Shown: positions 11,031 through 61,500 of the stretch, piece by piece
How the letters are laid out: the number at the start of each line of letters is the position of its first letter
Position numbering within the stretch: the first letter of the stretch is position 1
Virus record (IMG/VR): IMGVR_UViG_3300022538_000960
Coordinates: 1 to 64,000 of that record
Direction: 5' to 3' (one strand)
Source: a virus
Length of the DNA stretch: 64,000 nt
The notes under the pieces: generated by a model
Databases searched by the model: none
The model's input: the letters and a program-made list of their open reading frames with translations, nothing else
Told to the model about the DNA's origin: nothing
Program-made: the position numbers and the translations under genes

Positions 11031-11055
11031 TGAAAGTTTCAATAGGAGGATACAC

Positions 11056-14040: not shown

Positions 14041-14063
14041 CCAAATTTAAATGGAGATCATGG

Positions 14064-14645: not shown

Positions 14646-14660
14646 ATTGCAAGTGGTGTT

Positions 14661-15419: not shown

Positions 15420-15427
15420 AATTTTTT

Positions 15428-16447: not shown

Positions 16448-16448
16448 A

Positions 16449-17015: not shown

Positions 17016-17016
17016 A

Positions 17017-17916: not shown

Positions 17917-17957
17917 ATTTGATACAGTGAAAGAAGTAAAACTATAAGGAGCTTAGT

Positions 17958-19001: not shown

Positions 19002-19034
19002 TTTTTCCAATGAAACTATAAATTTCAAAGATAT

Positions 19035-19574: not shown

Positions 19575-19581
19575 ATTAGAA

Positions 19582-42444: not shown

Positions 42445-45162
42445 ATGCCTTTTAACGATAGCTCACTGAATCGGATAGGTTCAAACCTGATCGATTTCAA
42501 TCTTCGAGTTACTGCTCAGGCTGATATTGGAAAGAGTTTGCTGATCATTGGCACGTCTAGTGATGGACCTGTTAATGTTCCGATTAGAATAACGGAAATA
42601 GGTGGACTAGGCGCGGCAGCCGAGGTGTTCGGCGATGTTAGCAAAGGTTCTCTCCTGCATACAGCCATGGAAGCTAATCGTGCGAACAGGCGCGCAAAAG
42701 ATATCCGTCTCATGAGAATTAGTAACGGCAATGAAGCACAATTGTGTTTCAAAGAAGTTGATATTTCTGGTGAGTACGGAATATCTCCTCCAGCGAAAAG
42801 TGTTGACGAGGAATCTTATTATTGCACACCAGCTCCGGCAGTTCAAATGCCGGATGTGTTCTGTTTGACTGCAAAATACCCGGGTCAGATTTATAATCAA
42901 GTTTCGGTCAGAGCTGAAACCGGTGATGGCGACCTACATCCTGCGTCTCAATATATTGTGATTTATAATCCGAAAACTGCGAAGGAGTCCTGGTTTTCTT
43001 TTAATTACACAGATTTTGACGCAATTGTTGATTGCCATACTGTTGAAGACCTAGCTGATGCCATTAATGCGGATTCGAATTTGAATAGCATAATTATAGC
43101 AACAGTTAAAGAATTGAACGCAATTTTTGAACTCACCGCTTCTGATCCAAATGATCCAGCAAATACCAGGTGTGACCGGGGTGTTTCATATGACAGCAAC
43201 GGATATTTGAAGATCCAACTTAGTGAAATAACTCCAGTGTTTTATAATGATAATGCGAACTGCTGCATATCGAATGTTACTACCACTGGTGGAACTTGTA
43301 ATGTGCCCACGGCTGGTGATTTGATTGTGCAATTCAATGAGCTTTATGAGGTTCGTGAATATAAAGAATCAAATAAGAAACTCAAAGGACTTACCAACTG
43401 CATTCTTGATCATATTCCTGTAAAAGGTGTTGCTACGATTCCAACGACTACTCTGATAAAATATCGAAGTTTCACCGATGCCGAGTATGCCACCCCGCAA
43501 CTGATCATGCATTACAGAGGAATTGTCATAGCAACCATAACCGATACCGGGACTTTGGCTTTTGAGTTTGCATCCGAGATTTGCCCCGATGATGGCTATG
43601 TGGATGATCTATACTGTTTAGCGACCGATAGTATGTATATGGCAAACTATGGCGCTATTGGTGCCCTTCGCTCTAATGTTCAATTGGATGCTCTTCAGAC
43701 TACGTTCCATTTGTATGGAACAAAAAGTAGTCTTAAATATGAAATTCCATCTGGCCATTATAGGTGCGAATATGTCCCTGGAACTGAAATAGTTACAGTG
43801 AGTTTCTGTTCTGGGGAGGTTTTGCCTGCAGTTGGAACCGTACTGAGCTGCGATTATGATTCTTGCATTGAGGATTTGTCGTCAGAGGCTGGAACTTTGA
43901 CCGCCTGTTTGAACAGTAATGACTGGCATACATGGTTTGTGAGTGGAAAGACACTAACATTTGGTAAATCTCTTCCTGGAAATGCATCCTTCAGATATAG
44001 ATATAAAAATAAATTGGAAGAGGGAGCTGATTTTGTCGTCACGAGTTCGACTGGAAGAAAAAATGATATTGTCCAATTCACAAGTCTTGAAACTCAGCCG
44101 GAATTGAGCGGAGCTATGGATACTTCTGGAGTATTGCTTGGATTTGATTATATTTATCTTCCAGAGTGGATATCAGATGGTGCGGTTAAAACACTTACTG
44201 GTGGCACGAATGGAATTGATATGAGCAACTATGAAAAGTATGAGATTTTGCGCGAAGCTCTTGAAGTTGTCCAAGATTATCCAGTGTCATACATAGTTTT
44301 AGCTGGAATATATTTTGATGATACCAAAATCGTGTATGATCCAGAAACCGGCATTCCGCTGGAAACCAATGCTGGATTTCATACATTGCTTCATAATCAT
44401 CTTGAGGAATTGACCGGTTCGACCAGTGAGACCACTGGAATCATGTCGGCTAAACCCGCTGATGGAAATACGCCGGCAGATGTCAGAGCTTGGGTTGAAA
44501 GACTCACAGTGACAGATGCCAGCGATCCGAATCGGGCAGCGAATATCTTATCAAGTTTCGGAAGCAAATATATGACCATTGTCGGTGGAGAATTAATTTT
44601 CTCTAATGAGGCGGCATATATTCCTTATGCAAATACTACTGAAGGTTTGTATGGGGGACTGCTTTCCGCACTGCCAATAAATACGTCTCCGAGTAATAAG
44701 ACAGTGTTTGGGGTGACGAATGTAAGATATCTGATGTCCGGTGGTGAAAATGGTCAATTGGATCGATTGACAAGACTCAGACTTGTGACTTTCAAGCAAA
44801 AGCAAGATGGTGATATTGCCGTTGTTTCCGGAGTTACTGCTGCTCCATCTGGAAGTGATTATCAACGAGAAATGACCAGGAATACTGTGTTTGAATCGAT
44901 GGCGCTAATCCGTGCAGTCTGTGAACCATTTTTGGGTGAAGGTAATAGTCCACAAATTCGAGCTGCTATGGAAACTGCCATCAATTCGGCGCTCCAGAAA
45001 TTGGTCGAAATGAATCCTCCGGCTCTTAGTGAATATGATTTTACTATAAGATCTACCGCTGCTGATCAAGTACTAGGAATTGTAAACATTGATCTCGTGC
45101 TCGTTCCTGTGTTCGAGCTCAGAGAGATTCGCGTAACTGTAAAGTTGCGAGCTGAATTATAA
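42445..45162 (+). CDS. Tail sheath protein
   Basis: Protein of 905 residues. The N-terminus (SLLIIGTSSDGPVNVPIRITEIGGLGAAAEVFGD) and the C-terminus (NTVFESMALIRAVCEPFLGEGNS ... FELREIRVTVKLRAEL) match phage contractile-sheath proteins. At 905 residues it is longer than most; the middle (about 120-580) seems to hold inserted beta domains that decorate the tail surface. TAAGGAGGTTTT precedes the ATG. It shows that the phage is a myovirus. Confidence 0.85.
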   Translation: MPFNDSSLNRIGSNLIDFNLRVTAQADIGKSLLIIGTSSDGPVNVPIRITEIGGLGAAAEVFGDVSKGSLLHTAMEANRANRRAKDIRLMRISNGNEAQLCFKEVDISGEYGISPPAKSVDEESYYCTPAPAVQMPDVFCLTAKYPGQIYNQVSVRAETGDGDLHPASQYIVIYNPKTAKESWFSFNYTDFDAIVDCHTVEDLADAINADSNLNSIIIATVKELNAIFELTASDPNDPANTRCDRGVSYDSNGYLKIQLSEITPVFYNDNANCCISNVTTTGGTCNVPTAGDLIVQFNELYEVREYKESNKKLKGLTNCILDHIPVKGVATIPTTTLIKYRSFTDAEYATPQLIMHYRGIVIATITDTGTLAFEFASEICPDDGYVDDLYCLATDSMYMANYGAIGALRSNVQLDALQTTFHLYGTKSSLKYEIPSGHYRCEYVPGTEIVTVSFCSGEVLPAVGTVLSCDYDSCIEDLSSEAGTLTACLNSNDWHTWFVSGKTLTFGKSLPGNASFRYRYKNKLEEGADFVVTSSTGRKNDIVQFTSLETQPELSGAMDTSGVLLGFDYIYLPEWISDGAVKTLTGGTNGIDMSNYEKYEILREALEVVQDYPVSYIVLAGIYFDDTKIVYDPETGIPLETNAGFHTLLHNHLEELTGSTSETTGIMSAKPADGNTPADVRAWVERLTVTDASDPNRAANILSSFGSKYMTIVGGELIFSNEAAYIPYANTTEGLYGGLLSALPINTSPSNKTVFGVTNVRYLMSGGENGQLDRLTRLRLVTFKQKQDGDIAVVSGVTAAPSGSDYQREMTRNTVFESMALIRAVCEPFLGEGNSPQIRAAMETAINSALQKLVEMNPPALSEYDFTIRSTAADQVLGIVNIDLVLVPVFELREIRVTVKLRAEL

Positions 45163-45184: not shown

Positions 45185-45838
45185 ATGCCAGTTGGATTGG
45201 AAACTAGTTCAGTAACACGAACATATACGTCTTTTACGGGCGCGGATCTTAAAGCCATCTTCCATAACATCGTTATAGCTGAACTCATTGGTATTTCCTA
45301 TACTATTACCAGAGAAATTGCTCCTATCTATACTACAGGTTCTGCTGATCCGAGAAGTTTTAGCAAAGGCAAAAGAGGAATAGCTGGAACCATGGTAATG
45401 CACAATTTTGATAGGCACGCTTTGAGGAACATCATGGATAAGTCCACGTATGTAGCGAAGAATGACGACTTTCAAAGTGTAGGTTGGAAGCCAATAGATG
45501 AAATCAGTGGAATCGCTGGTGAAGGAAGATTAGGGGTCAGACTTGCAAATCCAATATATGTTGATCAGATTCCGCCATTTGATATTACAATTGCGTATGC
45601 GAATGAAACAGGACAAATGGCAACTGAGAGACTGATGGGGGTGCAAATTCTGAATGAAGGTCATGGGATCTCTATCGATGATCTAACAAATGAGACTAAT
45701 ATGACCTTTGTGTGCAGACATATTCAGGGTATGATCCCGGCGGAAACCATTAGCCCGTCAACTCAAGACCTGGAAAGACCTAACTATTCACCGTGGCGCA
45801 ACCTCGGAGGTGGAGCATTTACAGCCCCCGGTGAATAA
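45185..45838 (+). CDS. Tail tube protein (paralogue 1)
   Basis: Protein of 217 residues immediately after the sheath, with AAAAGGAGGTTAAT before the ATG. It contains SFTGADLKAIFHNIVIAELIGISYTI, a KGKRGIAGTMVMHNFDRHAL strand-turn typical of myovirus tubes, and IDQIPPFDITI-like VDQIPPFDITIAYAN. It forms the inner tube below the sheath. Two diverged copies follow. Confidence 0.8.
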   Translation: MPVGLETSSVTRTYTSFTGADLKAIFHNIVIAELIGISYTITREIAPIYTTGSADPRSFSKGKRGIAGTMVMHNFDRHALRNIMDKSTYVAKNDDFQSVGWKPIDEISGIAGEGRLGVRLANPIYVDQIPPFDITIAYANETGQMATERLMGVQILNEGHGISIDDLTNETNMTFVCRHIQGMIPAETISPSTQDLERPNYSPWRNLGGGAFTAPGE

Positions 45839-45932
45839 AGCATTTATTTGGAGGAAAACTTCTTCATGGATCCTCCAGCCACGGTTGTGGGAGGGCCACT
45901 CCCCATGGTCCTCCTGCAGCCGAAATAAATTT

Positions 45933-46121
45933 ATGAAAAAAATCATTGAATATACGTACGATGAGGAATCGGACGTTATGTATATATCCTTTGGTAAACC
46001 CAAACCTGCCGTTTGTCATGAAGTAGAAGAAGGGATGCTGCTTCGTAAAGATGCTGGTACGGGAATGTGGTGTGGTTTGACTATAATAAATTTTAGTAAG
46101 CGGTGTAATAAAGAAAAATGA
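45933..46121 (+). CDS. DUF2283 protein, copy 1
   Basis: Protein of 62 residues with the DUF2283 pattern: YTYDEESDVMYISFG, then VEEGMLLRKD and WCGLTIINFSKR. The family is widespread in bacteria and of unknown function, sometimes linked to toxin-antitoxin sets. It lies between two tail-tube paralogues, an unusual place. Start chosen at the in-frame ATG 45933. Its stop overlaps the next start (ATGA). Confidence 0.65.
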   Translation: MKKIIEYTYDEESDVMYISFGKPKPAVCHEVEEGMLLRKDAGTGMWCGLTIINFSKRCNKEK

Positions 46122-46297
46122 TTACATGGAATTACGATAAGAAAGCTGATGTAATGTATATCACTTTCGGTAAACGACAAAAAGACAATATTGATCACCA
46201 AGTTGAAGGGGGTATATACCTCAGCAAAAGCATAAATAATAAAAAGTGGTGTGGTCTAACAATTGTTGATTTCAGCAAGCGATGTAATTCGACATGA
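46118..46297 (+). CDS. DUF2283 protein, copy 2
   Basis: Protein of 59 residues, a tandem copy of the gene before it (WNYDKKADVMYITFG ... WCGLTIVDFSKRCN). It overlaps both its neighbours by ATGA junctions, so all three are translated together. Confidence 0.65.
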   Translation: MITWNYDKKADVMYITFGKRQKDNIDHQVEGGIYLSKSINNKKWCGLTIVDFSKRCNST

Positions 46298-47172
46298 AAA
46301 TACAACATAGACAATATGGGAAGGTGGGAAATCTGCGGCCTGCGGCGTATGATTCTCCACAGTCTATAACCACATTCACTGGGGCTGATATTACAGCTGT
46401 CGCCTATATTCATGATCAGCTTAAAGTGTTGGGTGAATTACAGACGATCTCCTATTCGATTCATCGTGAGAAAAGTGCAGTCATGCTTTTAGGGAGAATA
46501 GATCCTCCATGTTTTACTCGTGGTCCTCGGACGGTGGCCGGATCATTAATCTTTACAGTTTTTGATCGGGAAGTATTGGAAGAACTTCTTAATACATATC
46601 CGGACGATACCGTTGATAATGATTTCAGTACGCTCCTATTGGATCAGATTCCCCCATTTGATGTAACAATTTCGTTTATGAATGAGGATGGGTATCTATC
46701 CTCTATGGTTATCTACGGACTTGAAATTGTTGATGATGGGCAGGTTATGTCGATCAATGATATGATCATAGAAAATGTTAAAGCATATAAGGCTCGCGGA
46801 ATCGACCTGATGTATAAGAAATCTGGTGGAGTCTGGACTCCAGCTAGAAAATTTAATCCATCTGCTCGATTCGAATCTCTGAATCCAATGAAAGTTAGGA
46901 ATATTGAGGGGGATTATATAAAATATGTTGAAGAATTGGATGGTCAAATCGATGTTCTATACGCGCAAATAGTGGTTCTTAGTTCCGAGAATACTAGACT
47001 TGAGCTTACGGGCGGAAGCCAAAATGATATGGATGCAAATGAATTGGAAATTGTGAAATTGGAGGCACAAATTGAAAATTTGAGAAGAGAAAAGAGAACC
47101 ATAGAAGTTAAACTTGGAATTGAGGAAAGAAGGAAGGATTTAGGTTTATTGGGAACGAGCTGGGTTTCATAA
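46294..47172 (+). CDS. Tail-tube-like protein with coiled-coil tail (paralogue 2)
   Basis: Protein of 292 residues. The first 160 residues are paralogous to the tube (TFTGADITAVAYIHD, ISYSIHREKSAV, RTVAGSLIFTVFDREVLEEL, LDQIPPFDVTISF). The rest is a coiled coil (about 210-280). It may be a tube-initiator or tail-completion protein that meets the baseplate or tape measure. Ends just before a terminator. Confidence 0.7.
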   Translation: MKIQHRQYGKVGNLRPAAYDSPQSITTFTGADITAVAYIHDQLKVLGELQTISYSIHREKSAVMLLGRIDPPCFTRGPRTVAGSLIFTVFDREVLEELLNTYPDDTVDNDFSTLLLDQIPPFDVTISFMNEDGYLSSMVIYGLEIVDDGQVMSINDMIIENVKAYKARGIDLMYKKSGGVWTPARKFNPSARFESLNPMKVRNIEGDYIKYVEELDGQIDVLYAQIVVLSSENTRLELTGGSQNDMDANELEIVKLEAQIENLRREKRTIEVKLGIEERRKDLGLLGTSWVS

Positions 47173-47205
47173 GTTCCTATCTTACTCATATTCAATAACT
47201 TATCG

Positions 47206-47238
47206 GGCGGATATAAATTTTAATATCCGCCATTTTTT
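47206..47238 (+). terminator. Intrinsic terminator
   Basis: GGCGGATAT (47206-47214) pairs perfectly with ATATCCGCC (47223-47231), followed by ATTTTTT. It lies 34 bases after the stop of 46294-47172 and directly before a promoter-like motif. Confidence 0.85.
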
Positions 47239-47254
47239 GTGGGAAAATTGGGAA

Positions 47255-47270
47255 TTTGAGCTATAACATT
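47255..47270 (+). promoter_or_regulatory. Promoter-like motif, copy 4
   Basis: TTTGAGCTATAACATT, 17 bases after the terminator T-run and 16 bases before the ATG at 47286. A transcript would start close to the ATAGGAGC ribosome binding site. This is the best-placed copy to be a true promoter. Confidence 0.6.
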
Positions 47271-47285
47271 CGATAGGAGCAAATT

Positions 47286-48605
47286 ATGAATAAATTTCGT
47301 AGTGGAGAAAAATTGTCATCCATTGATATAACCAGTGAACGGAAGTTTGATCTTGATCAAATCCGATTAAAGCAGTTACGTAAGCTGAGAGAATATTACA
47401 CCGAATTTTATTCCGGGCAACAGGTAAAGGTGTATATTAACGATGTTCTTCTTGATTTAGTGGCTATTGCGTGGAATGCTACACAGAATAAGATGCCGGT
47501 GTATGGATTTGCCTCGCAGCTCTTTGATGCCGTTGCCGAAGGAACATTTATTGTCAATGGGGAATTTACATTAGCCTTCAAAGATGTTGCAACAATGCAT
47601 TTCATAAATAGACATATCAAAGGTCAGGAATATGATGCAGAGACTTATGCCGCAAATATTAAAAAACTGCGGGCACTTCCTAGCGCGTCGGTCATACATG
47701 AAATGGGACCGGGTTCCGTTGGACTTACCCCGGTGGTTGCTCAAGTTCAGGAACTTACAATAGATGAAGAAGGGAATGTTGTTCCAGACGGAACCAAGGG
47801 CAAAATATACGTATCAAAAAATCGAGTAGAAGATCTTTTTGGTGGGCCAGATAATTTTGATGATCTATGTGATGCGATGGAGGATTCTATTTGGGGGATC
47901 GGAGACTACTATAAAAATCAATATAAAAGGCCTGACGAAATTGATAAGGAACAGAGATTTGATTCATATGGAATAGGCTATGATGTTGCAGGAAAAGGGT
48001 TTAATTTATTAGTCACATATGGTAATCCAAATAATTCTGAATCTGAACATACATTGAAAACGCTAAATGATGTGCATATCCTGGGTAGTGCCCAATCTAT
48101 AGATCCAAATGCTGGATTCATTATCGAGACATATTCATTCTTTGCTAGGAATATGGATCAGCCCATGTCCAACTATAAGGGATTTGATAAACCGAATATT
48201 CCTACAGACAGAATTGGAAGGAGCCCAACTGTTCTTAATTTTACAGTTCCTCTCACCGCATTTGATCACTGCAATAGGGAATTTTTTGAAGAGCCAACAA
48301 GCATGATTCTGTCAATAAAAGATAAAATTTGGGATTTAAGGAGGGAGGACAAAAATTCAAAAACTTATTTTATAAGGTCGGAAATATTAATTCCAAGTGA
48401 TTGGACCGTTGATAATCCAGAAAATGAAACTAGAATTATTGAAAAAGGCCCCGTTACCAGAAAGAATCTTCTCAATTATTTTGCCAGCAAAATACATGAG
48501 GTTATTAAAGATGCTGCCAGGGCAACTGAGACCACTTTTTCATTCGTTACTAATATTTCATCTTCTCTTAAAACTGAATTTATCATAAATGTGTCGATTG
48601 AGTAA
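47286..48605 (+). CDS. Tail-tube/tube-initiator-like protein (paralogue 3)
   Basis: Protein of 439 residues. Residues 40-110 match tube-type or tube-initiator domains (YSGQQVKVYINDVLLDLVAIAW, KMPVYGFASQLFDAVAEGTFIVNGEFTLAFKD). The C-terminal half contains further beta domains. ATAGGAGC precedes the ATG. It likely joins tube to baseplate. Confidence 0.6.
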   Translation: MNKFRSGEKLSSIDITSERKFDLDQIRLKQLRKLREYYTEFYSGQQVKVYINDVLLDLVAIAWNATQNKMPVYGFASQLFDAVAEGTFIVNGEFTLAFKDVATMHFINRHIKGQEYDAETYAANIKKLRALPSASVIHEMGPGSVGLTPVVAQVQELTIDEEGNVVPDGTKGKIYVSKNRVEDLFGGPDNFDDLCDAMEDSIWGIGDYYKNQYKRPDEIDKEQRFDSYGIGYDVAGKGFNLLVTYGNPNNSESEHTLKTLNDVHILGSAQSIDPNAGFIIETYSFFARNMDQPMSNYKGFDKPNIPTDRIGRSPTVLNFTVPLTAFDHCNREFFEEPTSMILSIKDKIWDLRREDKNSKTYFIRSEILIPSDWTVDNPENETRIIEKGPVTRKNLLNYFASKIHEVIKDAARATETTFSFVTNISSSLKTEFIINVSIE

Positions 48606-49233
48606 AATCGTAGAACTTCAAAGAAAATATACGGATATTTATTTATCAAACTTACGTGGTAAGACCTATATTTTTAGAGATCCTACTTTGGGCGAATGGA
48701 TGAAGCTGGAGAAGTTTGAATTTTCAAAATTGAATGCCAGCGCATACTTGGTCGATACCTTATTGCTTCATCCTTCGAAAGAAAGCCTACTAGCGGGCGA
48801 GATCCTATCATTAGGCAATGAAATTTATAAGGTTGCTTCCAAATTTGCAGATGATAATGTAATTGCTGGAACGTTGGATACGATATCAAAGGACCTGAAT
48901 AGTGGAGATAGTATAGAAAGTGTTATTATGATTATCTGTTCGGCATTTCCATCCTATAAACCCGAAGACATATATGAATTCAATTTTGATAGATTGATGA
49001 CAAGACTAGCTCAAGCTGAAAAAATTCTTTCCCCACCGGAAGTTCCAGGGACTGTTGGAGATGGAACTCCTATTTTGCCGGAACAGGCTTCAGGAATTGC
49101 CAGATCGAAAAATGATTTGCAAATTGCATTGGCAAAACATAGAAGCCAAATAAAGAAACTTACGCCACATAAAGATTCGAAACCTTATCAAGATCTGAAC
49201 ACGAAAAAACCTAATAAGTTAAGGAGGGAATGA
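48589..49233 (+). CDS. Probable tail assembly chaperone
   Basis: Protein of 214 residues, first strands then helical, with a low-complexity acidic/proline middle (LSPPEVPGTVGDGTP). Size and position before the tape-measure-like gene fit tail assembly chaperones. It overlaps the previous gene by 17 bases. No slippery sequence is obvious. Confidence 0.5.
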   Translation: MCRLSKIVELQRKYTDIYLSNLRGKTYIFRDPTLGEWMKLEKFEFSKLNASAYLVDTLLLHPSKESLLAGEILSLGNEIYKVASKFADDNVIAGTLDTISKDLNSGDSIESVIMIICSAFPSYKPEDIYEFNFDRLMTRLAQAEKILSPPEVPGTVGDGTPILPEQASGIARSKNDLQIALAKHRSQIKKLTPHKDSKPYQDLNTKKPNKLRRE

Positions 49234-49234
49234 A

Positions 49235-49483
49235 ATGAGTTGGAAGATATGCCCCGCGTGCAAAGGAAAATGTTATATAATTTGCAAAGATTCGGATGGG
49301 AATGAAATTCCTCATAAATGCCCGGTTTGTGATTCTAAAGGCGAAATTTTTGTTGACGAAGTAAATCCCTACAGATGGTGGAGCCATCCATGCTATCCTT
49401 GTTACCCCATTTCTCCATGCATTGAATCAGATAGTACCGGGAATTGGCCGCCCGATGGCATAATTATTCAATATCAATACTAA
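49235..49483 (+). CDS. DnaJ-type zinc-finger protein, 82 aa
   Basis: Protein of 82 residues with CPACKGKC and CPVCDSKG, the CxxCxGxx pairs of DnaJ zinc fingers, then a Pro/Tyr/Cys-rich tail (HPCYPCYPISPC). AAGGAGGG precedes. Likely binds zinc; it may help tail assembly, by inference from position. Confidence 0.6.
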   Translation: MSWKICPACKGKCYIICKDSDGNEIPHKCPVCDSKGEIFVDEVNPYRWWSHPCYPCYPISPCIESDSTGNWPPDGIIIQYQY

Positions 49484-49499
49484 GGAAGGAAGGTAAATT

Positions 49500-49739
49500 A
49501 TGGATTTCCAAACTGGTGTATATTATTATCATTCAAAAGAAAAAAGAAATTACTTGTGTGTTGAAGTTAATAAAAGTCCGCATTGGGTTGAACCCGAAGA
49601 ACATGCTGCGGATGAAATACTTTATTCATTTAAGAGATGCAAGAAAAATAGTACTGCAATCGAAGATCATATCCCGGTCTATATATCTGATAGGCGATGG
49701 CTTAATCAATTAATTAATCAATTAAAGGAGGTGGAATGA
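49500..49739 (+). CDS. Hypothetical tail-region protein, 79 aa
   Basis: Protein of 79 residues with a beta N-terminus and a helical C-terminus, no known motif. AAGGAAGGT precedes the ATG. Overlaps the next gene by four bases. Confidence 0.55.
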   Translation: MDFQTGVYYYHSKEKRNYLCVEVNKSPHWVEPEEHAADEILYSFKRCKKNSTAIEDHIPVYISDRRWLNQLINQLKEVE

Positions 49740-50143
49740 TGTCTGTGGATCAGAAAGAAGAACAGACAGAATGGACATACCCGTTTACTGCGGAAATGAT
49801 GAATGGCTGGAAAGAAAAATTCAAGGATGTTTTTTGTCTTAAGATTAATGATAAGTTTTATGCTTATAAACCCTTGAGCGTGGGGGAACTTAGGGAACTT
49901 CAAGTTGCCGAGATGAAAACAATCAGAGAGCTGGAGTCAAATAATGAATTAACTGACGATGAAAAAATGACTTTTGTCCAAAGCAAATCGATGGAGCGGA
50001 CGGTCGCCACATGTGTCCTCTGGCCGGAGGATTTTAGTTCGCAATTAGATAGTGTCCCATGTGGAGTCGTTGATAGGTTGAACGCAGAAATATTCAAAGT
50101 TTCCGGTTATGAGGAAGCCACAACTGAGCCGATGAAATTATAA
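49736..50143 (+). CDS. Probable tail assembly chaperone, 135 aa
   Basis: Protein of 135 residues, mainly helical, after AAAGGAGG. It contains YKPLSVGELRELQVAE and a strand-helix end as in small chaperones that sit before tape-measure genes. Followed by a terminator-like hairpin. Confidence 0.5.
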   Translation: MMSVDQKEEQTEWTYPFTAEMMNGWKEKFKDVFCLKINDKFYAYKPLSVGELRELQVAEMKTIRELESNNELTDDEKMTFVQSKSMERTVATCVLWPEDFSSQLDSVPCGVVDRLNAEIFKVSGYEEATTEPMKL

Positions 50144-50185: not shown

Positions 50186-50218
50186 GGCGGGAGGATTTGA
50201 TGATTCCCCCGCCTTTTT
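50186..50218 (+). terminator. Terminator-like hairpin overlapping a start codon
   Basis: GGCGGG and CCCGCC, extended by GGA/TCC with one bulged A, form a stem followed by TTTTT. The stem contains the GGGAGGA ribosome binding site and the loop the ATG (50200) of the next, giant gene. It could end upstream transcripts, mask that start, or both. Confidence 0.65.
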
Positions 50219-53200
50219 CATTAATACTTATGTACCAAGACTATTTTTACGAGCAAAGAGAGAATCTGGATTATAGGGATCGGCAACTACCCAGTCCTTT
50301 GAAAACTATAGGGGCTGGGGCGTTTTCACTCCTGGCTTTTGTGGTCATCAGGGGGGCGGCGGTTCGTGGGTCTTCTGCTGCGAGCAAAGCCCTGTCTCGC
50401 AACTTGGCAAGAGTAGTAAGATCAGTTCAAGCCCCGGCATGGGCTAAATCCTATAGGAATTTAAGAGCTGCGGCGATAAGAAGTGGCCGGGCTGAAGCTA
50501 GGGAATTTGGAGTATTGGCTCCCAAGGATATTGGAATAGCCGCCACGGTAAAAGAAATACCCTTAATTCATAGAGCTCGAGCCAAATTTACAACTACCTT
50601 TGCAAAGCAAATTGAATCCAGGCGGCAGTATTATTATAGGGACTTAGGCTTACGCCAGAAAGAACTGTACGCCGCATTAAAGCATGGCCATCACCCAAAA
50701 TCTCTTGATCAAAGACTCAAGGCTTTAAAAACATTCATGAAACCCGATGGGGCATTTTCTGCCCGTTTCATGGCCGCTGCTGGGAAATGGGGCGAACGAT
50801 ATGCCAAGATGATCCCTGGGTTTTATGTTGCGGATCAAGCATTGGGTCTATTTTCAAAGGCGCGACCAGAACACCTGAAACCAGCATGGTATAATATACC
50901 CGGACATGTCGCTGGGATGGTCAGATTTGGAATCGAATTTGCTCCAATTGATTTAGCATTTAGTGGTGCTTTGCGGGTGCTTAGATATGGCAGAGCCGTA
51001 GCTGCAAGAAGTGCCCAATTGGGCGTCCGCGAATTCCCACACGTAAGAGAGGGATTTACAAAAGCCGTTGAAACCTTGCACATAAAAGGTGCTCAATGGC
51101 ATGCGTCTATTTCTAAGCATTGGGCTACTCGCAGACGTGGAGCATGGCCTTCGATTCAGGAACTCAAACGTGGCATCAGAGATCGCAAGGCTCCGCATTC
51201 AATGGATATTATCAGATTGTATTCTGATATCGTAAAAGATGCCAAAGTCCAGAGGAAACCCTATTTCAAAATGGAGCAGCAACTTACTCAGATCCTAGGT
51301 GTTCTTGGTATGAGGAAGGATCCCACACTGCTCCGCGAAATGTCTAGAAATACTGAAATCAAAAAGGCATTTGATGAAGTTCTTGCAAAATTTGAGAGGC
51401 GACCAAAACAGACATTTATAGAATATGCACTTAAAACTCCGGAGAGGCCGGCGGATTGGGCTCCACGTAGGTTGTCAACTACATCATATATTAAGAGATA
51501 TGCGAAAGAAGCCCAATGGGATCCGGAAACTACAAATAATGCTTTAAAGTTGCTTGGAGGAAAAGAATTATATTATGGCCAAAATATCCTTAGAAAAGGC
51601 AATTTTTCAATGTTCAATGCTAGCTTTGCGGCTGGCAAGGTAATAGATGTAATGGGGAAATGGAAGGTGCCGTTTATTAGCTGGCATCCTTTCAGACGAA
51701 TGATGGTTGCTGGAATTCCCAGAATAGGAATTCCGGGCAAAGGTCCCGCATTCAGAATTCTTGATGAAAAACAATCTGCATTGATGGCTGAGGCTGCAGC
51801 CAATGCCGATCTAAATGTTACTAGGTCTCCGCAACTCAAAGTCGGGGAATATTTCATGAGGATTGGAGATCATCTTTTTAGGCTTAGCCCTGAGAAACTT
51901 ATCGAAAGAGTTTCCGGACATTGGAGAGTCAGCGTTGATACAATTACTGCTGGAGAAAGAAGACATTTCCAAGGTCTGGTTGAAAGTCAGACTGATTATG
52001 AACATACTGGTTGGTTGGGACATCTGCGGCAAAAGTTTGAATTAGGCCGATCTCCTCACTTCATAGGAAAGCGACTTAAAGAATATATTATTCAAGATTT
52101 TAATCCCGAGAGCCCCCACGTATTGATGCATGAAAAAGGGAAATATGTTAATATGCTCAGACATCTCCAAGGCGATAAGATCCTCAGTCCTCGAGAACAG
52201 AAGGAATTTATAAATTATTCAAGAGCGGTGGGTCGCCACTTATATGGATCAGAACAAACGGCTTTAGAAGTCTTTCATAATAATCAAGGTCTCAGAGGGA
52301 AAGTCCTTGATATCTTAGGTGGCGTTGATGCAAAGAAGGCTAAGAAGATTTTAAATGATGCAAATATAGATAGGGTAATTGACGATCTATCCTTATTTGA
52401 CTATGCACTACCAGAAACATATTCCCAAAGAACCATTCAACAAGTTCGCCGAGCACTCCACGATGTCCAAAATCTTACAGGCCCTGATCGAGAATTCCTA
52501 TTAAGATCAAGATCAAGTATTCTTGAACAGTCTAGCAATTTGACCGTGGAAGATTATCTGATGGGGCAGTATTTTAAGAAGACATTGGAAAATTACAGCC
52601 AGGCTGGAAAGATCACGGAAGGCGTCTACGATAAAATTTTCAAATCCATTGATGATACGCTCCTGGCCAAAAGGGAAAAATCTAAGGCAAAATCATTATT
52701 TACTAGTATGAAAATTAATAGGCCTATGTCCGATTATCTGAATGTATATAGTGATCAGGAAGTAATCAATAGTTTGGATACTGTCGGGCATCTTAGGGAT
52801 ATTATTACCCCAAATGAAAGTTTGCTTAGGGAAGTATTTAAATTGGATTATAAGTCTCTTCGGGAATCTATGAAAATAAATAGATTCATGAAGGACACTC
52901 TTGTTCCCCTTGAGATCCAAGGATTTTTGGGACCCATAGATGAGATATGGAGGGTTCAAGGTCATGGAGCTCCAGCTGCTCCAAAGGATCTTTTTGGCGC
53001 CGCCCCAGGATTTGGGGACATGCTTAAAAGCGATTTTAAAAAATTCTTTAGGATTTCTGATTCCGCAACCCAAATAAATTACGAGCCATATGTTACCAAG
53101 CAAAGCATGCTCCTTCATAGATGGGCAATTAGGCCATTCAATATGACATTAGGATGGATTGGTCTGGATTTACATTATAGATCAAACGCTGAATTTATGA

Positions 53201-56200
53201 AAAAATTCTTATGGAAACGCGCTTTGGCTATTCCCGCTGCCATTTATGGTTACCGCGCCCTCGATACCTTCCTGACGGTAAATCCACTCTTAGACCACAC
53301 CATGTTTGATGATGGTTTGACATCCGCTGGGGCGCAGGCAATCGGGAAAGCCAATCTTGCTAGGGCCGAAGTGTTTGACACATTGGGAATAACAGACTTT
53401 GCTCAACATATGGAAGGTCTTATGCCTGGCTCTATGGAATCCCCAGCCGCAAAACTATTTAGGGGTGCCGTCCTTCCACTCTTAGGAAGAAGATTTGGTG
53501 GGGGACCGGGACTTATGATTGGACTAGGAGCCGCGGCTGCAACAGGATTTGGACTCCCAGATCTTACGAGATCTGCGGATGAACTTCGAGATGTTTATTC
53601 TGGACGAAAGCTTTTACCTGTCAGGTCTGGCAGATTTTGGGAGACCTCAAAATTGTCGTATTTTGGAGGAAGAATATCATCATTTCAACCAAGTTGGTAT
53701 ACGAAAATTGTAAGTCAATATAAATACACGGATGCTGCCTTGGGGACTAAATTAGAATCGCTATTATATACTGGTCCTTTGGGTGCAATAACCGATTCGT
53801 ACCACTACGAGCGTGTTCGGTACCACGATAGACCTTATCCCACGACGGCTCCATTGTTTAGCGACATTCCAATAATCGGATCCGTAGCAGATATGACGAT
53901 TGGAAGACTCTTAAAACCCCAGACTATGATGCATGAAGATGAATTAGCTGCTGCCCAGATGGGATTTGATGTGGAGACGAAGAACCGGATTCTGCCGGGA
54001 TATAATAAGAATACAATGCCACCCCTACATGAAGCCCGCCCAGGCTATTTTGCTCCTAGGCATACTGTCCCATCTGTGAGTATGAAGGGAATGTTGGGAG
54101 AGTCATTCTATAGACTTACTGAAGCGGCTGGACTTCGGGGATTTATGACACAAGCAATATTAGGTCGAGAGGGCATCGGTCAATATGCGCCAATATATGA
54201 TGATGCATCTGCAATCACCAGTTTCGGCCGACAATTTTGGGACCTTCAGGCTGGGGGTGGGCTGGCATCGGAAGCCTGGAGAAGATTGTATCCAAGAGAA
54301 AGATTTAAAAATTTGGTAAATCCAATTCGTAATTTGGCTCCGACGTGGTTGCCGGAAGATTTCAAATTCGGAGATCCGTATACAAAAATCAAAGGGGGTT
54401 TGATATTATTACCATCCCGAGCTCATGAGAAACTTTACAAAGTGCGTCATAATTTCCCAGTTGACCTAGAATATTTCGGATACGAACCAGGAGAAGCTGC
54501 TGGGAGGATGCTGAAGCTGATTAGACCAGAGAGAGAAGAGGAATATCATTACTCGTTCATTAAAGAGTTGGTTCAAAAACAATTACTGATGAATAGACAA
54601 TTGCTGAGCAAGGATGTTTTTCAATTTGATCCTTGGAATAAATTGGAGGGAACTGTTGATGCTATAATAATGAATCAATCAGGGAACCCAGAATTGATGC
54701 AGATAAAGGCGACCACTTCTGAAAAGCTTGGATTTATGCAGCAACCGAAGCCCGCGCACGTTGCTCAACTTAATTTTGCCATGAGACAGATGAAACGGAG
54801 ACATGGACAAATACTCTATGTCGCCTCGGATAATCCAGAACTAACTAAATCCTTCTATGTGGAATACAGCTCCGAACGATTTCATAATGACATGGCAAGA
54901 ATGAATGAAGCCCGAGAATTAGCATCGGATATGCTACTCAAGGGAATTGGTCAGGTTGGAGAATCCTATTCTTATCCAGATAGATTGCAGGTGTTGGCAA
55001 ATTCGGCTCCGTGGAGTCCAGAATATAAGAAGGTTTTGAAGCAATGTAAGATGTTAGATAAATTTGGATTGTTGGATGAAGAAGATCGGGTTAAAGTAAA
55101 TGAATCGCGCAGGCAGCACGACGCAATTATGCGGAAGTTTGATTTTTATCCTCATCGATTTAGTCATGGAAAATGGCTTACGCCTGATCCAATTTATAAT
55201 TTGATGTCTCAGAATGTGAATATCAAGGCAGCGGCAGAATATAATGTTGTCGAAAGATTAATGGGAGCGGCATATGAACGACTATTAGAATTTGACATCC
55301 CAGTGGTGCACTCAAAACTGCTACCATATTACACAAGTGAACAAATGTATGAGAGACAGATCGGAGGCAGTTTCAGTGGAAACTGGTCTAGACCCATCCA
55401 TGATTATATAAGACCATGGTGGCATAGCTTCTTATTATCTTCTGGTCCTGCAGAAGCTGCGGCAAAACTTGGATTCGCAGGTGCGCTGTTTGCTGGTCCC
55501 CCCGGCGCCGCCATTGGTGTGAGTGCTGGACTATTATATGGCGGAGGGAGAGCTGTTGCCGGTCGAGGAACTTGGGTCCCAGGAGAAGTTAAGAGAATTC
55601 GGGAAATTGATGAATATTTTGATGCCTTGGAATATATAAAGAATAATCAATTGTATGAACAAACCGGGGATCCGGAATATCTTAAGCGCTCAAGGGAGAC
55701 AATCTATGGGATTACTCCTATGAGCACCCCAGCTGAATTTTATAGAGCAGTGCCGTACATGGAAAGACCATTTTTCTGGTCGTTCGCCTCTATTCAGGAC
55801 AAGGCTCAGCAAAATAGAATTAAACAAAGAGTTTCACCGACTATGAGGACGCTTTTGGAACATTATTGGTCTGGAGATAAGAAATTTACGAATCCCATGA
55901 TAGAGGACTATAATCCAAAATTCCGAATGCCAGCAGAAGATTGGATGGGGTGGAGAGAAGATATTCCTCTGGAAGATATTCAGCTCAAGACCGTTAAGAA
56001 TGAAGGACTTGATAATTTTGACTTTGGATTGGGATGGAAACCACAGGAATTAAGAATGCATAATTCCCCATATGCAATCAAGCCGATAGATATTTCTAGT
56101 CCTTCTGGAGTTCCATATGGTCAGGAAGATTTGGATGCTGGCGACATAAAGAATTTTATTCGAAATGTTTTACAAAGGTATGGCGTAATGAATTCGAATG

Positions 56201-56256
56201 TAACCGTTACAAAATCTCAGGGCAAAGGTGCCCACATATCTTTAAATATTACATAA
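50200..56256 (+). CDS. Giant tape-measure-position protein with embedded PD-(D/E)XK-like domain
   Basis: Protein of 2,018 residues in the tape-measure position. The N-terminus carries a membrane-like segment (GAGAFSLLAFVVIRGAA); other Gly/Ala-rich hydrophobic regions lie near 1,000, 1,110 and 1,750 (FAGALFAGPPGAAIGVSAGLLYGGG). Near 1,480-1,550 is a RecB/Cas4-like nuclease pattern: GTVDAIIM (Asp1487), LMQIKA (Gln1501, Lys1503), then AQLNFAMRQM. The usual acidic residue before Lys is Gln. I take ATG 50200, behind GGGAGGA; an ATG at 50230 is possible. Tape-measure proteins set tail length and are ejected; a nuclease inside one is unusual. It might instead be an inner-core protein. Confidence 0.65.
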   Translation: MIPPPFSLILMYQDYFYEQRENLDYRDRQLPSPLKTIGAGAFSLLAFVVIRGAAVRGSSAASKALSRNLARVVRSVQAPAWAKSYRNLRAAAIRSGRAEAREFGVLAPKDIGIAATVKEIPLIHRARAKFTTTFAKQIESRRQYYYRDLGLRQKELYAALKHGHHPKSLDQRLKALKTFMKPDGAFSARFMAAAGKWGERYAKMIPGFYVADQALGLFSKARPEHLKPAWYNIPGHVAGMVRFGIEFAPIDLAFSGALRVLRYGRAVAARSAQLGVREFPHVREGFTKAVETLHIKGAQWHASISKHWATRRRGAWPSIQELKRGIRDRKAPHSMDIIRLYSDIVKDAKVQRKPYFKMEQQLTQILGVLGMRKDPTLLREMSRNTEIKKAFDEVLAKFERRPKQTFIEYALKTPERPADWAPRRLSTTSYIKRYAKEAQWDPETTNNALKLLGGKELYYGQNILRKGNFSMFNASFAAGKVIDVMGKWKVPFISWHPFRRMMVAGIPRIGIPGKGPAFRILDEKQSALMAEAAANADLNVTRSPQLKVGEYFMRIGDHLFRLSPEKLIERVSGHWRVSVDTITAGERRHFQGLVESQTDYEHTGWLGHLRQKFELGRSPHFIGKRLKEYIIQDFNPESPHVLMHEKGKYVNMLRHLQGDKILSPREQKEFINYSRAVGRHLYGSEQTALEVFHNNQGLRGKVLDILGGVDAKKAKKILNDANIDRVIDDLSLFDYALPETYSQRTIQQVRRALHDVQNLTGPDREFLLRSRSSILEQSSNLTVEDYLMGQYFKKTLENYSQAGKITEGVYDKIFKSIDDTLLAKREKSKAKSLFTSMKINRPMSDYLNVYSDQEVINSLDTVGHLRDIITPNESLLREVFKLDYKSLRESMKINRFMKDTLVPLEIQGFLGPIDEIWRVQGHGAPAAPKDLFGAAPGFGDMLKSDFKKFFRISDSATQINYEPYVTKQSMLLHRWAIRPFNMTLGWIGLDLHYRSNAEFMKKFLWKRALAIPAAIYGYRALDTFLTVNPLLDHTMFDDGLTSAGAQAIGKANLARAEVFDTLGITDFAQHMEGLMPGSMESPAAKLFRGAVLPLLGRRFGGGPGLMIGLGAAAATGFGLPDLTRSADELRDVYSGRKLLPVRSGRFWETSKLSYFGGRISSFQPSWYTKIVSQYKYTDAALGTKLESLLYTGPLGAITDSYHYERVRYHDRPYPTTAPLFSDIPIIGSVADMTIGRLLKPQTMMHEDELAAAQMGFDVETKNRILPGYNKNTMPPLHEARPGYFAPRHTVPSVSMKGMLGESFYRLTEAAGLRGFMTQAILGREGIGQYAPIYDDASAITSFGRQFWDLQAGGGLASEAWRRLYPRERFKNLVNPIRNLAPTWLPEDFKFGDPYTKIKGGLILLPSRAHEKLYKVRHNFPVDLEYFGYEPGEAAGRMLKLIRPEREEEYHYSFIKELVQKQLLMNRQLLSKDVFQFDPWNKLEGTVDAIIMNQSGNPELMQIKATTSEKLGFMQQPKPAHVAQLNFAMRQMKRRHGQILYVASDNPELTKSFYVEYSSERFHNDMARMNEARELASDMLLKGIGQVGESYSYPDRLQVLANSAPWSPEYKKVLKQCKMLDKFGLLDEEDRVKVNESRRQHDAIMRKFDFYPHRFSHGKWLTPDPIYNLMSQNVNIKAAAEYNVVERLMGAAYERLLEFDIPVVHSKLLPYYTSEQMYERQIGGSFSGNWSRPIHDYIRPWWHSFLLSSGPAEAAAKLGFAGALFAGPPGAAIGVSAGLLYGGGRAVAGRGTWVPGEVKRIREIDEYFDALEYIKNNQLYEQTGDPEYLKRSRETIYGITPMSTPAEFYRAVPYMERPFFWSFASIQDKAQQNRIKQRVSPTMRTLLEHYWSGDKKFTNPMIEDYNPKFRMPAEDWMGWREDIPLEDIQLKTVKNEGLDNFDFGLGWKPQELRMHNSPYAIKPIDISSPSGVPYGQEDLDAGDIKNFIRNVLQRYGVMNSNVTVTKSQGKGAHISLNIT

Positions 56257-56265: not shown

Positions 56266-58524
56266 ATGAAAATTTCTGCGATAAACCTGACCGTTAATTC
56301 CATCAAGGTTTTGGAGAGAAGGTATCTTAAGAAGGACAAAAACGGAAAGGTCGACGAAACCCCAGAAGAGCTCTTCTGGAGGGTGGCTGAGGTTATATCT
56401 TCTGCGGATAAGGATTATGGAGCTACCGAATCTGAGATAAAGAAGGCCAAAGAAGAATTCTATGAGATGATGGCAAAGTTGGAATTTATGCCCAACTCCC
56501 CCACCCTGATGAATGCGGGTAGACCTCTGGGCCAGCTCTCCGCCTGCTTTGTCATACCGATCGAAGATACCATGGAATCCATCTTCACTGCGGTGAAGGA
56601 TACTGCCCTGATTCACAAAAGCGGAGGCGGAACCGGATTTTCATTCTCAAGATTAAGACCCAAAAATTCGCCTGTGGCATCCACCAGCGGGGTGGCTTCG
56701 GGTCCCATATCTTTCATGAAAGTTATCAATGCCGCAACTGAAGCGGTCAAGCAGGGAGGGACGCGACGTGGAGCTAACATGGCAATATTGAGGGTGGATC
56801 ATCCGGACATTCTGGAGTTTATCTGTTCCAAGGACGATCTGAAAGAACTTACCAATTTCAATATCTCTGTGGCTGTCACCGATGCCTTCACGAAGGCGAT
56901 GGAAAAGGATAAGTACTACGATTTGATCGATCCCCGCACCGGAAAAGAATACAATTTGAACGATAAACCAGTTCGGTATAGGGCCAAAGAGATCTTCGAC
57001 TTGATCGTGGAACATGCCTGGAGAACCGGTGAACCAGGGATGATGTTTCTGGATAAGATGAATCAGGGCAATCCCATTACCAAAGTTGGATTATATGAAT
57101 CCACCAACCCCTGCGGAGAGCAGCCCCTTTTGCCTTACGAAAGCTGTAACTTAGGATCCATCAATCTCTCCAAGATGCTTAAAGTCAGTGGTCAGTCGTC
57201 AGTGGTCAGTGATCAGACCCCACCCACCACTGTTATGGAGGTGGATTGGGACAAATTGGAAACCACGGTCAAAAAGGCGGTTCATTTTCTGGATAATGTG
57301 ATAGACGCCAACAATCATCCGCTTTCAGAAATTAAAAAGAACACCGAAGCCAATCGGAAAATCGGCTTGGGGGTGATGGGTTGGGCAGATATGTTGGTTC
57401 AGTTAAGGATTCCATATAATTCCACTGAGGCGGTGAAGTTAGCTGATAAGGTGATGGGATTTATCAAAGAAAAATCTCACCAGACTTCGTCTGAATTAGG
57501 AAAAGAAAGGGGCAACTTCCCCAATTGGGAGAAAAGCGTCTATTACGAGAAAAAAATCCCCATGCGCAATTCCACCGTTACCACCATTGCGCCGGCAGGA
57601 ACCATCAGCATCATCGCTGGTTGTTCCTCCGGGATTGAGCCGCTTTTTGCCATCTCCTACATCCGCACGGTGATGGACAACACCAAACTGGTGGAGGTAA
57701 ATCCCTTCTTTGAAGAAGAGGCGAAAAAGAGAGGTTTTGACACCAAGGATTTGATGAAGAAAATTGCCCAGAAGGGATCGATTCAGGATCCCGATTTCAT
57801 CGGGATTCCCGAGGACGTCAAAAAGGTATTTGTGGTTTCTCATGACATAGCACCGGAATGGCACGTGCGAATGCAGGCCGCTTTCCAGAAGTATACGGAC
57901 AATGCAGTTTCCAAGACTATAAACCTCCCCAACCAAGCCACGGTGGGGGACGTGGAGACTGCTTATAGATTAGCATACCAATTGGGTTGTAAGGGGGTGA
58001 CCATCTATCGGGATGGATCCAGAGAGGCACAAGTGTTATCCACCAAAAAGGAAAAAGAAAAAGAGCAGGAGAAAATCGCTCCCATGGAGAGACCGGCTTG
58101 CCTTTCCGGCATAACTGACAAGATTAAAACCGGATACGGGAATCTTTATGTGACCATCAACAGCTTAAATGGAAAGCCTTTTGAGGTTTTTGCCCAGATA
58201 GGAAAATCCGGATATTCCACCATGGCCGACACCGAAGCCATCTGCAGGTTGATCTCCCTGGCGCTTCGGAGCGGGATAAGTGTGGAAAAGACCATCGAGC
58301 AACTGATTGGAATTGGCGGCGCATCTCCCATCTATCAGGAGGGCGGACTGGTCATGTCCATCCCGGATGCCATTGCCAAAGTTTTGAATAAGCATTTTGG
58401 TAATGGCCAAAATGCCAATCACGATATAGATCTTACTATGGAATTCTGTCCCGACTGTGGAGCTAAATTGAATCGTGATTCTGGGTGTATTGTCTGCACT
58501 CAATGTGGATTTTCAAAATGTTAA
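56266..58524 (+). CDS. nrdJ: Class II (B12-dependent) ribonucleoside-diphosphate/triphosphate reductase
   Basis: Protein of 752 residues converting ribonucleotides to deoxyribonucleotides with adenosylcobalamin. Key residues: Cys94 in LSACFVIP, Cys283 and Glu285 in NPCGE, Cys294 in ESCNLGS, and a C-terminal zinc-ribbon-like FCPDCGAKL ... CTQCGFSKC tail that should shuttle electrons. TRRGANMA and a C-terminal vitamin-type segment are normal; I see no ATP-cone. An in-frame insert SGQSSVVSDQ (308-317) comes from a CAGTGGTCAGT-type repeat. Its G+C-richer codons differ from both giant neighbours, so recent uptake from a bacterium is likely. Confidence 0.9.
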   Translation: MKISAINLTVNSIKVLERRYLKKDKNGKVDETPEELFWRVAEVISSADKDYGATESEIKKAKEEFYEMMAKLEFMPNSPTLMNAGRPLGQLSACFVIPIEDTMESIFTAVKDTALIHKSGGGTGFSFSRLRPKNSPVASTSGVASGPISFMKVINAATEAVKQGGTRRGANMAILRVDHPDILEFICSKDDLKELTNFNISVAVTDAFTKAMEKDKYYDLIDPRTGKEYNLNDKPVRYRAKEIFDLIVEHAWRTGEPGMMFLDKMNQGNPITKVGLYESTNPCGEQPLLPYESCNLGSINLSKMLKVSGQSSVVSDQTPPTTVMEVDWDKLETTVKKAVHFLDNVIDANNHPLSEIKKNTEANRKIGLGVMGWADMLVQLRIPYNSTEAVKLADKVMGFIKEKSHQTSSELGKERGNFPNWEKSVYYEKKIPMRNSTVTTIAPAGTISIIAGCSSGIEPLFAISYIRTVMDNTKLVEVNPFFEEEAKKRGFDTKDLMKKIAQKGSIQDPDFIGIPEDVKKVFVVSHDIAPEWHVRMQAAFQKYTDNAVSKTINLPNQATVGDVETAYRLAYQLGCKGVTIYRDGSREAQVLSTKKEKEKEQEKIAPMERPACLSGITDKIKTGYGNLYVTINSLNGKPFEVFAQIGKSGYSTMADTEAICRLISLALRSGISVEKTIEQLIGIGGASPIYQEGGLVMSIPDAIAKVLNKHFGNGQNANHDIDLTMEFCPDCGAKLNRDSGCIVCTQCGFSKC
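57184..57216 (+). repeat. GTCAGTGG short tandem repeat inside nrdJ
   Basis: Four imperfect copies of GTCAGTGG/GTCAGTCG in 33 bases, read in frame as VSGQSSVVSDQ. It interrupts a conserved loop of the reductase between motifs, where no insert is usual. Confidence 0.7.
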
Positions 58525-58536
58525 TGGGTGATTCTA

Positions 58537-61500
58537 ATGCCAATTATTTATGATCCGGAAGAAGATCAGTTTGTAGATCGGCACGGATATTTATTTCCAA
58601 CTGTCCTATTAGGTGGCGGGTTCCTGGCTTGGAAAAAATATTATGGATCTCCACAGCTTGGAAGGAAATTTTCGCCCCGAGCATTTGTAGGATTTGTTAA
58701 AGATTTAGACCCTCAAGATTATCTAAGGAAATATCTTACAAGACCAGACAAGCCAGAACTCCCTCTCCAACGTAGGTTGGTAGAAACTGCGGTAGAATAT
58801 GAAAAAAGCAAATCAGTAATAGAATTTCTCACCGATGCCGATATGAAAACTATTCACTCAATCGGCTCAGCTCTTCCGACTCCGATGAAAGCGGAAGAGA
58901 TAGAATTCAAGCGGCAGGTAATTAGACAATTTAATCCGGTAACTTATGACTTGGTAAGATCCAATGTGGAAAAAACCCAGGAGGTATTCAACGAGTTGCT
59001 TGAAAATGTTGAAGAATCTAAACATTTACAAAGTGTTCTTAAACAACAGCTTGAACGATATAGATTTAAAAAATCTCGCCTATTGATATATTCGAAATTT
59101 TCTGAAATTATCAGTCCGGAAATGCTGAAGAGCGAAGCTGGACATCCTGTTTTGATGAGACAGCTATGGGATATGCAGAAGAAACAAGTTCAGGAAGCTA
59201 GGAGATTGGCGCAGATATTACAAAATGAAACTCCGGAAACTATAGTAAACTTAAAGATTCCAAAAGTTTTGGAGCGCATTGATCCAACCACTATCATAGA
59301 CGAGAGACGAGCGAGACTCCAACCCGCAGGGAAAACGATTAGTGATACGGGCATCAAGTTATCTTATACAAATTATAAATCATTTCTTCAGGAACTCCGA
59401 AGAGCGAGGGTCGATTCCAAAGCTGTGGCTGCAATCGAATCTATAGACCCATTACTAAGGCAGCATCTAAATGAACTTGCCCATACAAAACCTCGAATTA
59501 CGTATGCCCTTCGCGATAATGCATTCAACTTACAGGCCGTGATTAAATTATCTATTCAAACTAAAGAGGAAGGCAAAAGGGAGATCATTAATCTGAAAAT
59601 TCCTCTTGCTCGTGGTGGGAGATTAAGAATCAATGGGACCGGGTACATCCCTCAGAGATACCGAGGCATTAAGCCGCTTATCCCAGAAATAGAACGAATT
59701 GAATCTGATATCTACGAGTCGGTGATTCGTAATTTGAATAAGAGATTCAAAAGTGAAGTTTGGCATAAAGTTATGGATGGAGATGCCCGTGGAGGTGAAC
59801 GATCCATTAATGCATTGATTAAGGAACCGATTGATGAAAGATTAATCATCGAATCGGGGCGCCCAGTCCATGATTTCATTGAGCAGAATATAATCCAGGA
59901 TGCTAGACTCGGCTATCTGTCGCCTACACGTGGATTCAGAACTGAAGATGAGCGGCGTGTGGTGCTTGATCGATTCAAAAAAATGCAAAAACTTAAATTA
60001 CTTCTATTGGAGGGTGGAGGAAAGTTAAAATTACCAAATAGATATGCATTTATAGATTTTGAAACATTCGGAACAAAAACGAATTACCTGCCGCATCAAG
60101 TGACCGTAGGTATAATTGAAAATGGCGCAGTCGTTGATTGGTATACAGGAAAAATCGATCCTCGAAGCATTAATACCAACTATGCTTTTCCGGAAGTTGA
60201 TTTGAAGTTGTCATTCAAGGGAAAAACGAGAGAACAAGTTATGAAGGAATTCGATGAAATTGGACAACCTATTAGTAAGATTCGGAGAGATTTGGAAGAA
60301 TTCCTGCGGAAAAATGCCAAAGGAGGAAAGCTTCCAGTTGCTGCTTGGAGTGCTGGATTCGATGTGGATCGGGTAATGGGGCAGCAATTCTTGGGGGCCA
60401 AAGCATATTTGGGAGAAACTTGGGATCCGATGGATCTCCAAAAAGCTATTGATCCAGATGTTCAAGCTTCAGTTTCTCTTAGATCCGTTGGGCGATCTCG
60501 TAAAATCTTTGTGCCAACTTCTTCGAAAAAAGATTTGATTCTTAATAAAAAAGTTATTGAATTATTTAAAAAGAATCGCAATTTAATGTCTATCTTGAAG
60601 GACAAAGATCCTGGATTTCATGGTAAGTTAATGAAGGCAGTTTCCGAAAAACAAATAAGGGATCTGGTAATGCACGAGGCATCAATTGATGTACTTGTAG
60701 CAAATAAGGTCTTTCAGGATATTGCGAAAGATATTAATTTGCATTCATCTGTAGTGATGCGTGATTTGAATGCAATGTTATTGTCTTATCATAGAGCCCT
60801 GACCCGCTCAATAAATCCAATAGGTATCAATCACTGGACAACCAGAGCACTGGGATCTAATTTCCCCTCACTTTCTCCAGCTCAAATTTTGCAAGGTAAA
60901 TTTACAAAATTTGATATCAGAGATTTAGCTCCCCTTACTAGGTTAGGCTTAGATCCAACACGGCCATTTTATCAACAATGGGTTTCAGCGCACTTAATTA
61001 CCAAAGATGTTCCCGACTTGATTACGAAAACGTATAAGAAGATTGCTGATAAGCATGGCGAGCTCTTTAAATCGATAGATACATTAACAATTTTTAATCC
61101 ATTAACTGCAGAAAGTGCAGGCCTAATAGATTTTCAGGCTGCGGATGAAATGGCAATTAAAATGGGGACAAAAGAGATTAGAATTCCGCATACGGGCAAA
61201 TTGAAGCTCATACCCGAACTCAGAGAATATTTTGAACAAATAAAATCAACAAGGAGTCCGAGAGAGCGTGAAATAGTTTTATCTAAATTAAGACAGAAAA
61301 TGGCGAAGTCATATCAAAAGGGATCTCATTTCCAGGAATGGTTGCCTGGGTATACCTTACTTGGAGAAGCAGAAGGATTTACATTTAATACCTCGACTCC
61401 ATTGATGTCAACAATCGAGAACATTGAATACAATAATGAGAACAAGGAAATAGCCATTCGTCTCCAGACGGCGAGCCGTCCTGAAAAGTATGGGCATCCA

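Follow-up and report, generated by a model that had tools for sequence, protein, structure and literature searches.

A RecB/Cas4-type nuclease-fold domain, probably non-catalytic, inserted in a giant tail-module protein of a 0305phi8-36/ME3-like phage

A gene for a giant tail-module protein in a 64,000-nucleotide stretch of viral DNA (the window, itself taken from a virus record of 98,001 bases) encodes, at residues 1404-1606 of its product, an inserted PD-(D/E)XK domain with its linkers (54409 to 55017, on the plus strand, as are all features of the tail module given below), which is found at the same site in seven of 85 non-redundant relatives. It is reasonably probable, in our assessment, that this domain descends from a captured RecB/Cas4-type nuclease and was remodelled, in the lineage of the window, into a module of the tail protein with a DNA-handling or structural role and probably without catalysis. 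The conversion of an enzyme into a part of the virion is a rare change, and here active sites that range from complete through partly lost to largely lost coexist at one insertion site of the family. Since these graded states share a single site, the capture of a nuclease and its re-use by a tail protein become testable.

The gene (50200 to 56256) lies in an open frame of 50197-56256 that begins with TTG; the ATG at 50200 is the likelier start, because a Shine-Dalgarno sequence, GGAGG, is positioned at 50190-50194, and the product from this start is 2,018 aa. By tblastn, the protein is a homologue of gp35 of Acinetobacter phage ME3, CDS0026 of Moorella phage MTATph1 and gp031 plus gp033 of Bacillus phage KLEB27-3, all carrying labels such as hypothetical or (virion) structural protein; the ME3 annotation links genes of that phage to 0305phi8-36. 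Upstream in the window are a tail sheath gene that marks the tail module (42445 to 45162; phrog_16991 'tail sheath', 1.1e-51), three genes in tail-tube position (45185 to 48605, namely 45185-45838, 46294-47172 and 47286-48605; PHROG 9206 matches), which are ordered like the three 'tail tube protein' genes of KLEB27-3, and small open reading frames in the position of tail assembly chaperones (48589 to 50143; weak phrog_344 matches at 0.22 and 0.14). The gene order after sheath and tube matches that of MTATph1, KLEB27-3 and ME3. By homology and synteny, the 2,018-aa protein would thus rank as a virion structural protein of the 0305phi8-36/ME3-like phages.

The initial annotation had put this protein at the tape-measure position, which is close; yet the published tape measure corresponds to the next gene, having been assigned in 0305phi8-36 to orf146, directly before the hub orf147 (PMC2147016). 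Between tube and hub, ME3 and KLEB27-3 have two large genes (the first being split in KLEB27-3), and the gene of the 2,018-aa protein corresponds to the first. As orf146 adjoins the hub, gene order makes the published ruler the second gene and the window's protein the counterpart of the virion protein encoded just before orf146; the window's protein is thus probably not itself the lineage's tape measure. Scanned in full length against Pfam, the protein gave no match, and a PHROG search gave no match to a tape-measure family. A ribonucleotide reductase large-chain gene (56266-58524; Pfam 8.8e-137) separates the two giant tail genes in the window; in two near relatives (L002 and L003) they are adjacent, with no ribonucleotide reductase gene in between.

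To the nuclease motifs GTVDAIIM, LMQIKA and AQLNFAM, which start at residues 1484, 1499 and 1522, respectively, several lines of evidence apply. A PHROG search with the whole protein finds two nuclease families over residues 1476-1578 (phrog_1706, 'CRISPR/Cas system associated', at 3.1e-7, or 9.5e-9 with the domain alone, and phrog_2506 at 7e-4), and therefore the motif is not due to chance. Six of the seven members of the domain family match phrog_1706 (best 1e-21), while the profile of the seven-member family finds Cas4 SSO0001 (4ic1) in PDB at 2.1e-5, with the Asp and ExK positions of SSO0001 aligned. The Pfam PDDEXK_1 cut-off is passed by the domain of one relative (L038); the window domain alone went unrecognised by Pfam, and tblastn of the domain against phage genomes returned no significant match.

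An AlphaFold2 model of the domain, built from six sequences, is low in confidence for the N-terminal 45 residues and predicts a confidently folded nuclease core at residues 1446-1580 (54535 to 54939; model residues 43-177, with pLDDT of 82-91 over most of its length and about 85-91 in most blocks). The predicted topology is alpha-beta-beta-beta-alpha-beta (H43-61, E65-74, E79-88, E94-102, H115-127 and E132-139), and D1487, Q1501 and K1503 sit on adjacent strands of the model. The top Foldseek matches were Cas4 SSO0001, MGME1, LHK-Exo and lambda exonuclease, and VIA-align Z scores were 11.2 for Cas4 SSO0001, 10.9 for DinG, 10.8 for both MGME1 and LHK-Exo, 10.0 for a further Cas4 and 9.8 for lambda exonuclease. 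A search of BFVD ranked A7KUR9_2 best by query TM-score (0.62); judging from its accession block, this may be the homologous protein of 0305phi8-36. The predicted structure thus confirms that residues 1404-1606 form a domain with the fold of the PD-(D/E)XK superfamily. The nuclease-like domain proposed in the initial annotation is borne out, as one of RecB/Cas4/lambda-exonuclease type within a large tail-module protein, and its Asp1487, Gln1501 and Lys1503 fall at exactly the residues named there. Stand-alone RecB/Cas4-family exonucleases of phiYS40 and Streptomyces phages match the L055 and L054 copies (1e-7 and 9e-6), and phage enzymes of this kind are, by these matches, the likely type of donor.

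The 85 relatives were collected by scans with the flanks of the insert. The spacing from the conserved LPG..Y to ILADVAPYS is about 25 residues in most of them and 192-217 in the carriers, which are the window, L002, L003, L012, L038, L054 and L055 only; all hold the domain at one fixed site, and each carrier record has a single copy. In a tree of the flanks (FastTree), the window, L002, L003, L054 and L055 form a clade with a support of 0.998, and L038 and L012 are placed elsewhere. In addition, 40 residues of L106 match the C-terminus of the domain profile (1.4e-8), and this stretch looks like a remnant of the insert. Given the spread of the carriers over the tree and this remnant-like match, an old insertion with repeated loss is plausible, transfer being the alternative.

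Two other accounts of the insert were rejected. An origin from an intein or homing endonuclease does not fit, as no splicing residues are found at its ends and the fold is of RecB/Cas4 type, not LAGLIDADG or HNH. Replacement of the insert by an SNase-like domain, which is seen in the homologous tail protein of other relatives (Pfam SNase 0.0017-0.095, below the cut-off), does not fit either: that domain is located further downstream and co-occurs with the insert in L012, and thus represents a separate insertion.

Other elements interrupt the same tail gene. LAGLIDADG inteins number one in L002 (10001-17209), four in L003 (10001-20845, by eye) and one in L054 (2659-10404), the last sharing its site with the third intein of L003; the tail gene of the window has none. 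A subtilase (peptidase S8) domain of ~270 aa is inserted in the homologous protein of L039 (6069-11885; Pfam 6.5e-63). In KLEB27-3 (gp031-gp033; L005 9121-16274), the homologous gene is split around a small open reading frame, gp032, whose resemblance by eye to an HNH-type endonuclease suggests a mobile intron.

The active site differs in completeness among the seven copies. The full RecB/Cas4 set, consisting of Gly and His (motif I), Glu, Asp, ExK and QxxxY, is present in L038, L054 and L055, whereas the window, L002 and L003 have at those positions Tyr, Lys, Asp, Asp1487, Gln1501-x-Lys1503 and Gln1523 with Ala for Tyr. Asp1487, the motif II metal ligand (54658 to 54660), is found in all seven copies. 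Motif III (Gln1501-Ile-Lys1503; 54700 to 54708) is ExK in three relatives and QxQ in one, so that the signature of Asp plus (D/E)xK is absent from the window domain, owing to Gln1501, and present in L038, L054 and L055. In motif IV (QhxxY), Gln1523 is present (54766 to 54768) and the Tyr is Ala. The motif I metal ligand is His in the three complete copies and Lys in the window, L002 and L003, a loss that could partly be an alignment shift, since the alignment is at its least certain in the motif I helix. In L012, the Asp alone is kept from the whole set, and the Lys is also lost. As for the four cysteines of the Fe-S cluster in Cas4 proper, no Cys is found anywhere in residues 1404-1606. The Gln that the initial annotation had noted in place of an acidic residue is therefore real, and the conservation it had looked for at the catalytic positions holds for the Asp but not for motif III, which varies between lineages (ExK, QxK and QxQ).

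The metal ligands of SSO0001 are His62, Asp99, Glu113 and Ile114, and alanine mutants at the Cas4 motif positions and at the Tyr are inactive enzymes (PMC4176176). Mrr and MspJI use PD-QxK for catalysis (PMC12707154), and type ISP enzymes typically have it (PMC3874165); Gln1501 alone thus does not prove inactivity. The joint replacement of the motif I His, motif III Glu and motif IV Tyr argues for inactivity of the window domain, and makes the active nuclease cargo once proposed for it doubtful in the virus of the window. Selection has nevertheless been maintained on the domain: its pN/pS is ~0.09-0.12, like that of the rest of the protein (synonymous sites being at or near saturation, so that dN/dS values are rough), and the Gln1501-Ile-Lys1503 codons differ synonymously among the window, L002 and L003. 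With constraint equal to that on the rest of the protein, the domain is no decaying remnant in its lineage.

A history consistent with these observations would begin with a stand-alone Cas4/RecB-type PD-(D/E)XK exonuclease captured into a fixed loop of the protein that is encoded, in 0305phi8-36/ME3-like myophages, downstream of the tube/chaperone genes and ahead of the tape-measure gene. As the recipient is a tail-module protein, every tail would from then on carry the nuclease-fold domain. Where the site is complete (L038, L054 and L055), the domain probably works as a metal-dependent DNA nuclease, either within the particle or during ejection. In the window lineage, the His, the Glu and the Tyr of QhxxY have been replaced, with the fold, Asp, Lys and Gln held by purifying selection; there the domain has most likely ceased to cut DNA in the manner of Cas4 and serves the tail as a module that contacts DNA or is structural.

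It is possible, and to us rather unlikely, that the window domain has remained an active nuclease, using a PD-QxK site like that of Mrr or MspJI; it would then travel in the tail and leave it together with the genome, to attack host or rival DNA or to process the ends of the phage genome. Such an activity would agree with the retention of Asp1487, Lys1503 and Gln1523 despite synonymous codon changes, with the strong purifying selection, with the complete active site of three relatives and with catalysis through QxK in Mrr-type enzymes. However, the domain belongs to the RecB/Cas4 type, whose His, Glu and Tyr mutants are inactive, and all three residues are replaced here. Mrr and MspJI do resemble it in having QxK for (D/E)xK with a preceding Asp, but they are cellular, modification-dependent restriction endonucleases from a different branch of the PD-(D/E)XK superfamily and lie outside its closest fold matches. 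We give still less weight to the insert being a dispensable passenger that needs only to fold, tolerated in its loop like the inteins of the same gene and having no role of its own. The patchy distribution (7/85) and the record of the gene as an insertion hot spot, with inteins in L002, L003 and L054, the KLEB27-3 break and the L039 subtilase, are what a passenger would produce; yet the domain is constrained as strongly as the remaining protein, keeps Asp, Lys and Gln throughout the window group, and ends without splicing motifs.

For a captured nuclease remodelled into a virion module, the closest published parallel is the nucleocapsid protein TP1 of TTV1, in which a Cas4-type nuclease likewise became a virion protein and lost the motif III Glu (PMC4625639). 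TP1 belongs to an archaeal filamentous virus and corresponds to the N-terminal half of a split Cas4, whereas the present case concerns a tailed phage, in which a giant tail protein has received a whole domain, and some relatives still have the complete active site. Cas4 SSO0001 (4ic1) itself resembles the window domain in fold, in the Asp-Lys-Gln positions and in its alignment over motifs II-IV, and the stand-alone Cas4/RecB-family exonucleases of phiYS40 and the Streptomyces phages are matched to the canonical copies; unlike these enzymes, the window domain is embedded in a tail protein, has no Fe-S cysteines and is without the motif I His, motif III Glu and motif IV Tyr. Within the same lineage and tail module, the 0305phi8-36-like element BtI1 has a hub protein with a staphylococcal nuclease domain, of a purpose unknown to the authors (PMC2147016). 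There too a nuclease domain is fused to a virion protein, but the fold is that of SNase, the gene is the hub and the fusion is N-terminal, not an internal insertion.

The next giant tail gene (58528 to 64000, running past the window; ORF L007 529-6582), which encodes 2,017 aa at the tape-measure position of the lineage, contains a DEDDh (DnaQ-like) exonuclease domain at 60010 to 60759. The window copy has the D-x-E, FD and HxxxxD motifs, profile matches are significant (Pfam Rv2179c-like at 6.3e-5 for the window copy; RNase_T at 3.3e-9 for the best member of the family; PDB DEDDh proteins at 9.7e-9 with a profile), and the domain is apparently intact; the AlphaFold2 model of it has a pLDDT of 38.8, and the assignment rests on sequence. 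Many relatives carry this domain in their next gene too, at differing positions of the protein, with hmm matches in MTATph1, KLEB27-3 and Alicyclobacillus, Paenibacillus and Oceanobacillus contigs. Taken with the insert, this domain suggests that the tails of a little-known phage lineage incorporate DNA-processing activities, a matter of interest for the handling of DNA by long-tailed phages during ejection and for what is delivered into cells. We raise only tentatively the broader idea that 0305phi8-36-like myophages load RecB/Cas4-like and DEDDh domains into adjacent giant tail proteins, where both might travel with the particle and act at genome entry, the RecB/Cas4-like one having become a non-cutting DNA-handling part in some lineages.

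Several other genes of the window were recorded. A stand-alone RecU-like Holliday junction resolvase is encoded at 20438-20908 (Pfam 8.4e-11), and an AAA ATPase at 22758-23990 (Pfam 4.5e-16); jumbo phages have been reported to encode BCS1-type AAA proteins, proposed as movers of folded proteins (PMC7824862). Four small HNH-endonuclease-like open reading frames, recognised by eye, are scattered among the virus genes (9392-9952, 21448-22023, 29537-30082 and 39795-40430), and a trypsin-like serine protease is encoded at 4551-5573 (Pfam Trypsin_2 1.4e-5, just under the cut-off). An outer-membrane UPF0164/PorV-like protein (6569-7600) adjoins sugar-metabolism and glycosyltransferase-like genes (7735-20424), an unusual cargo for a phage or else a host flank.
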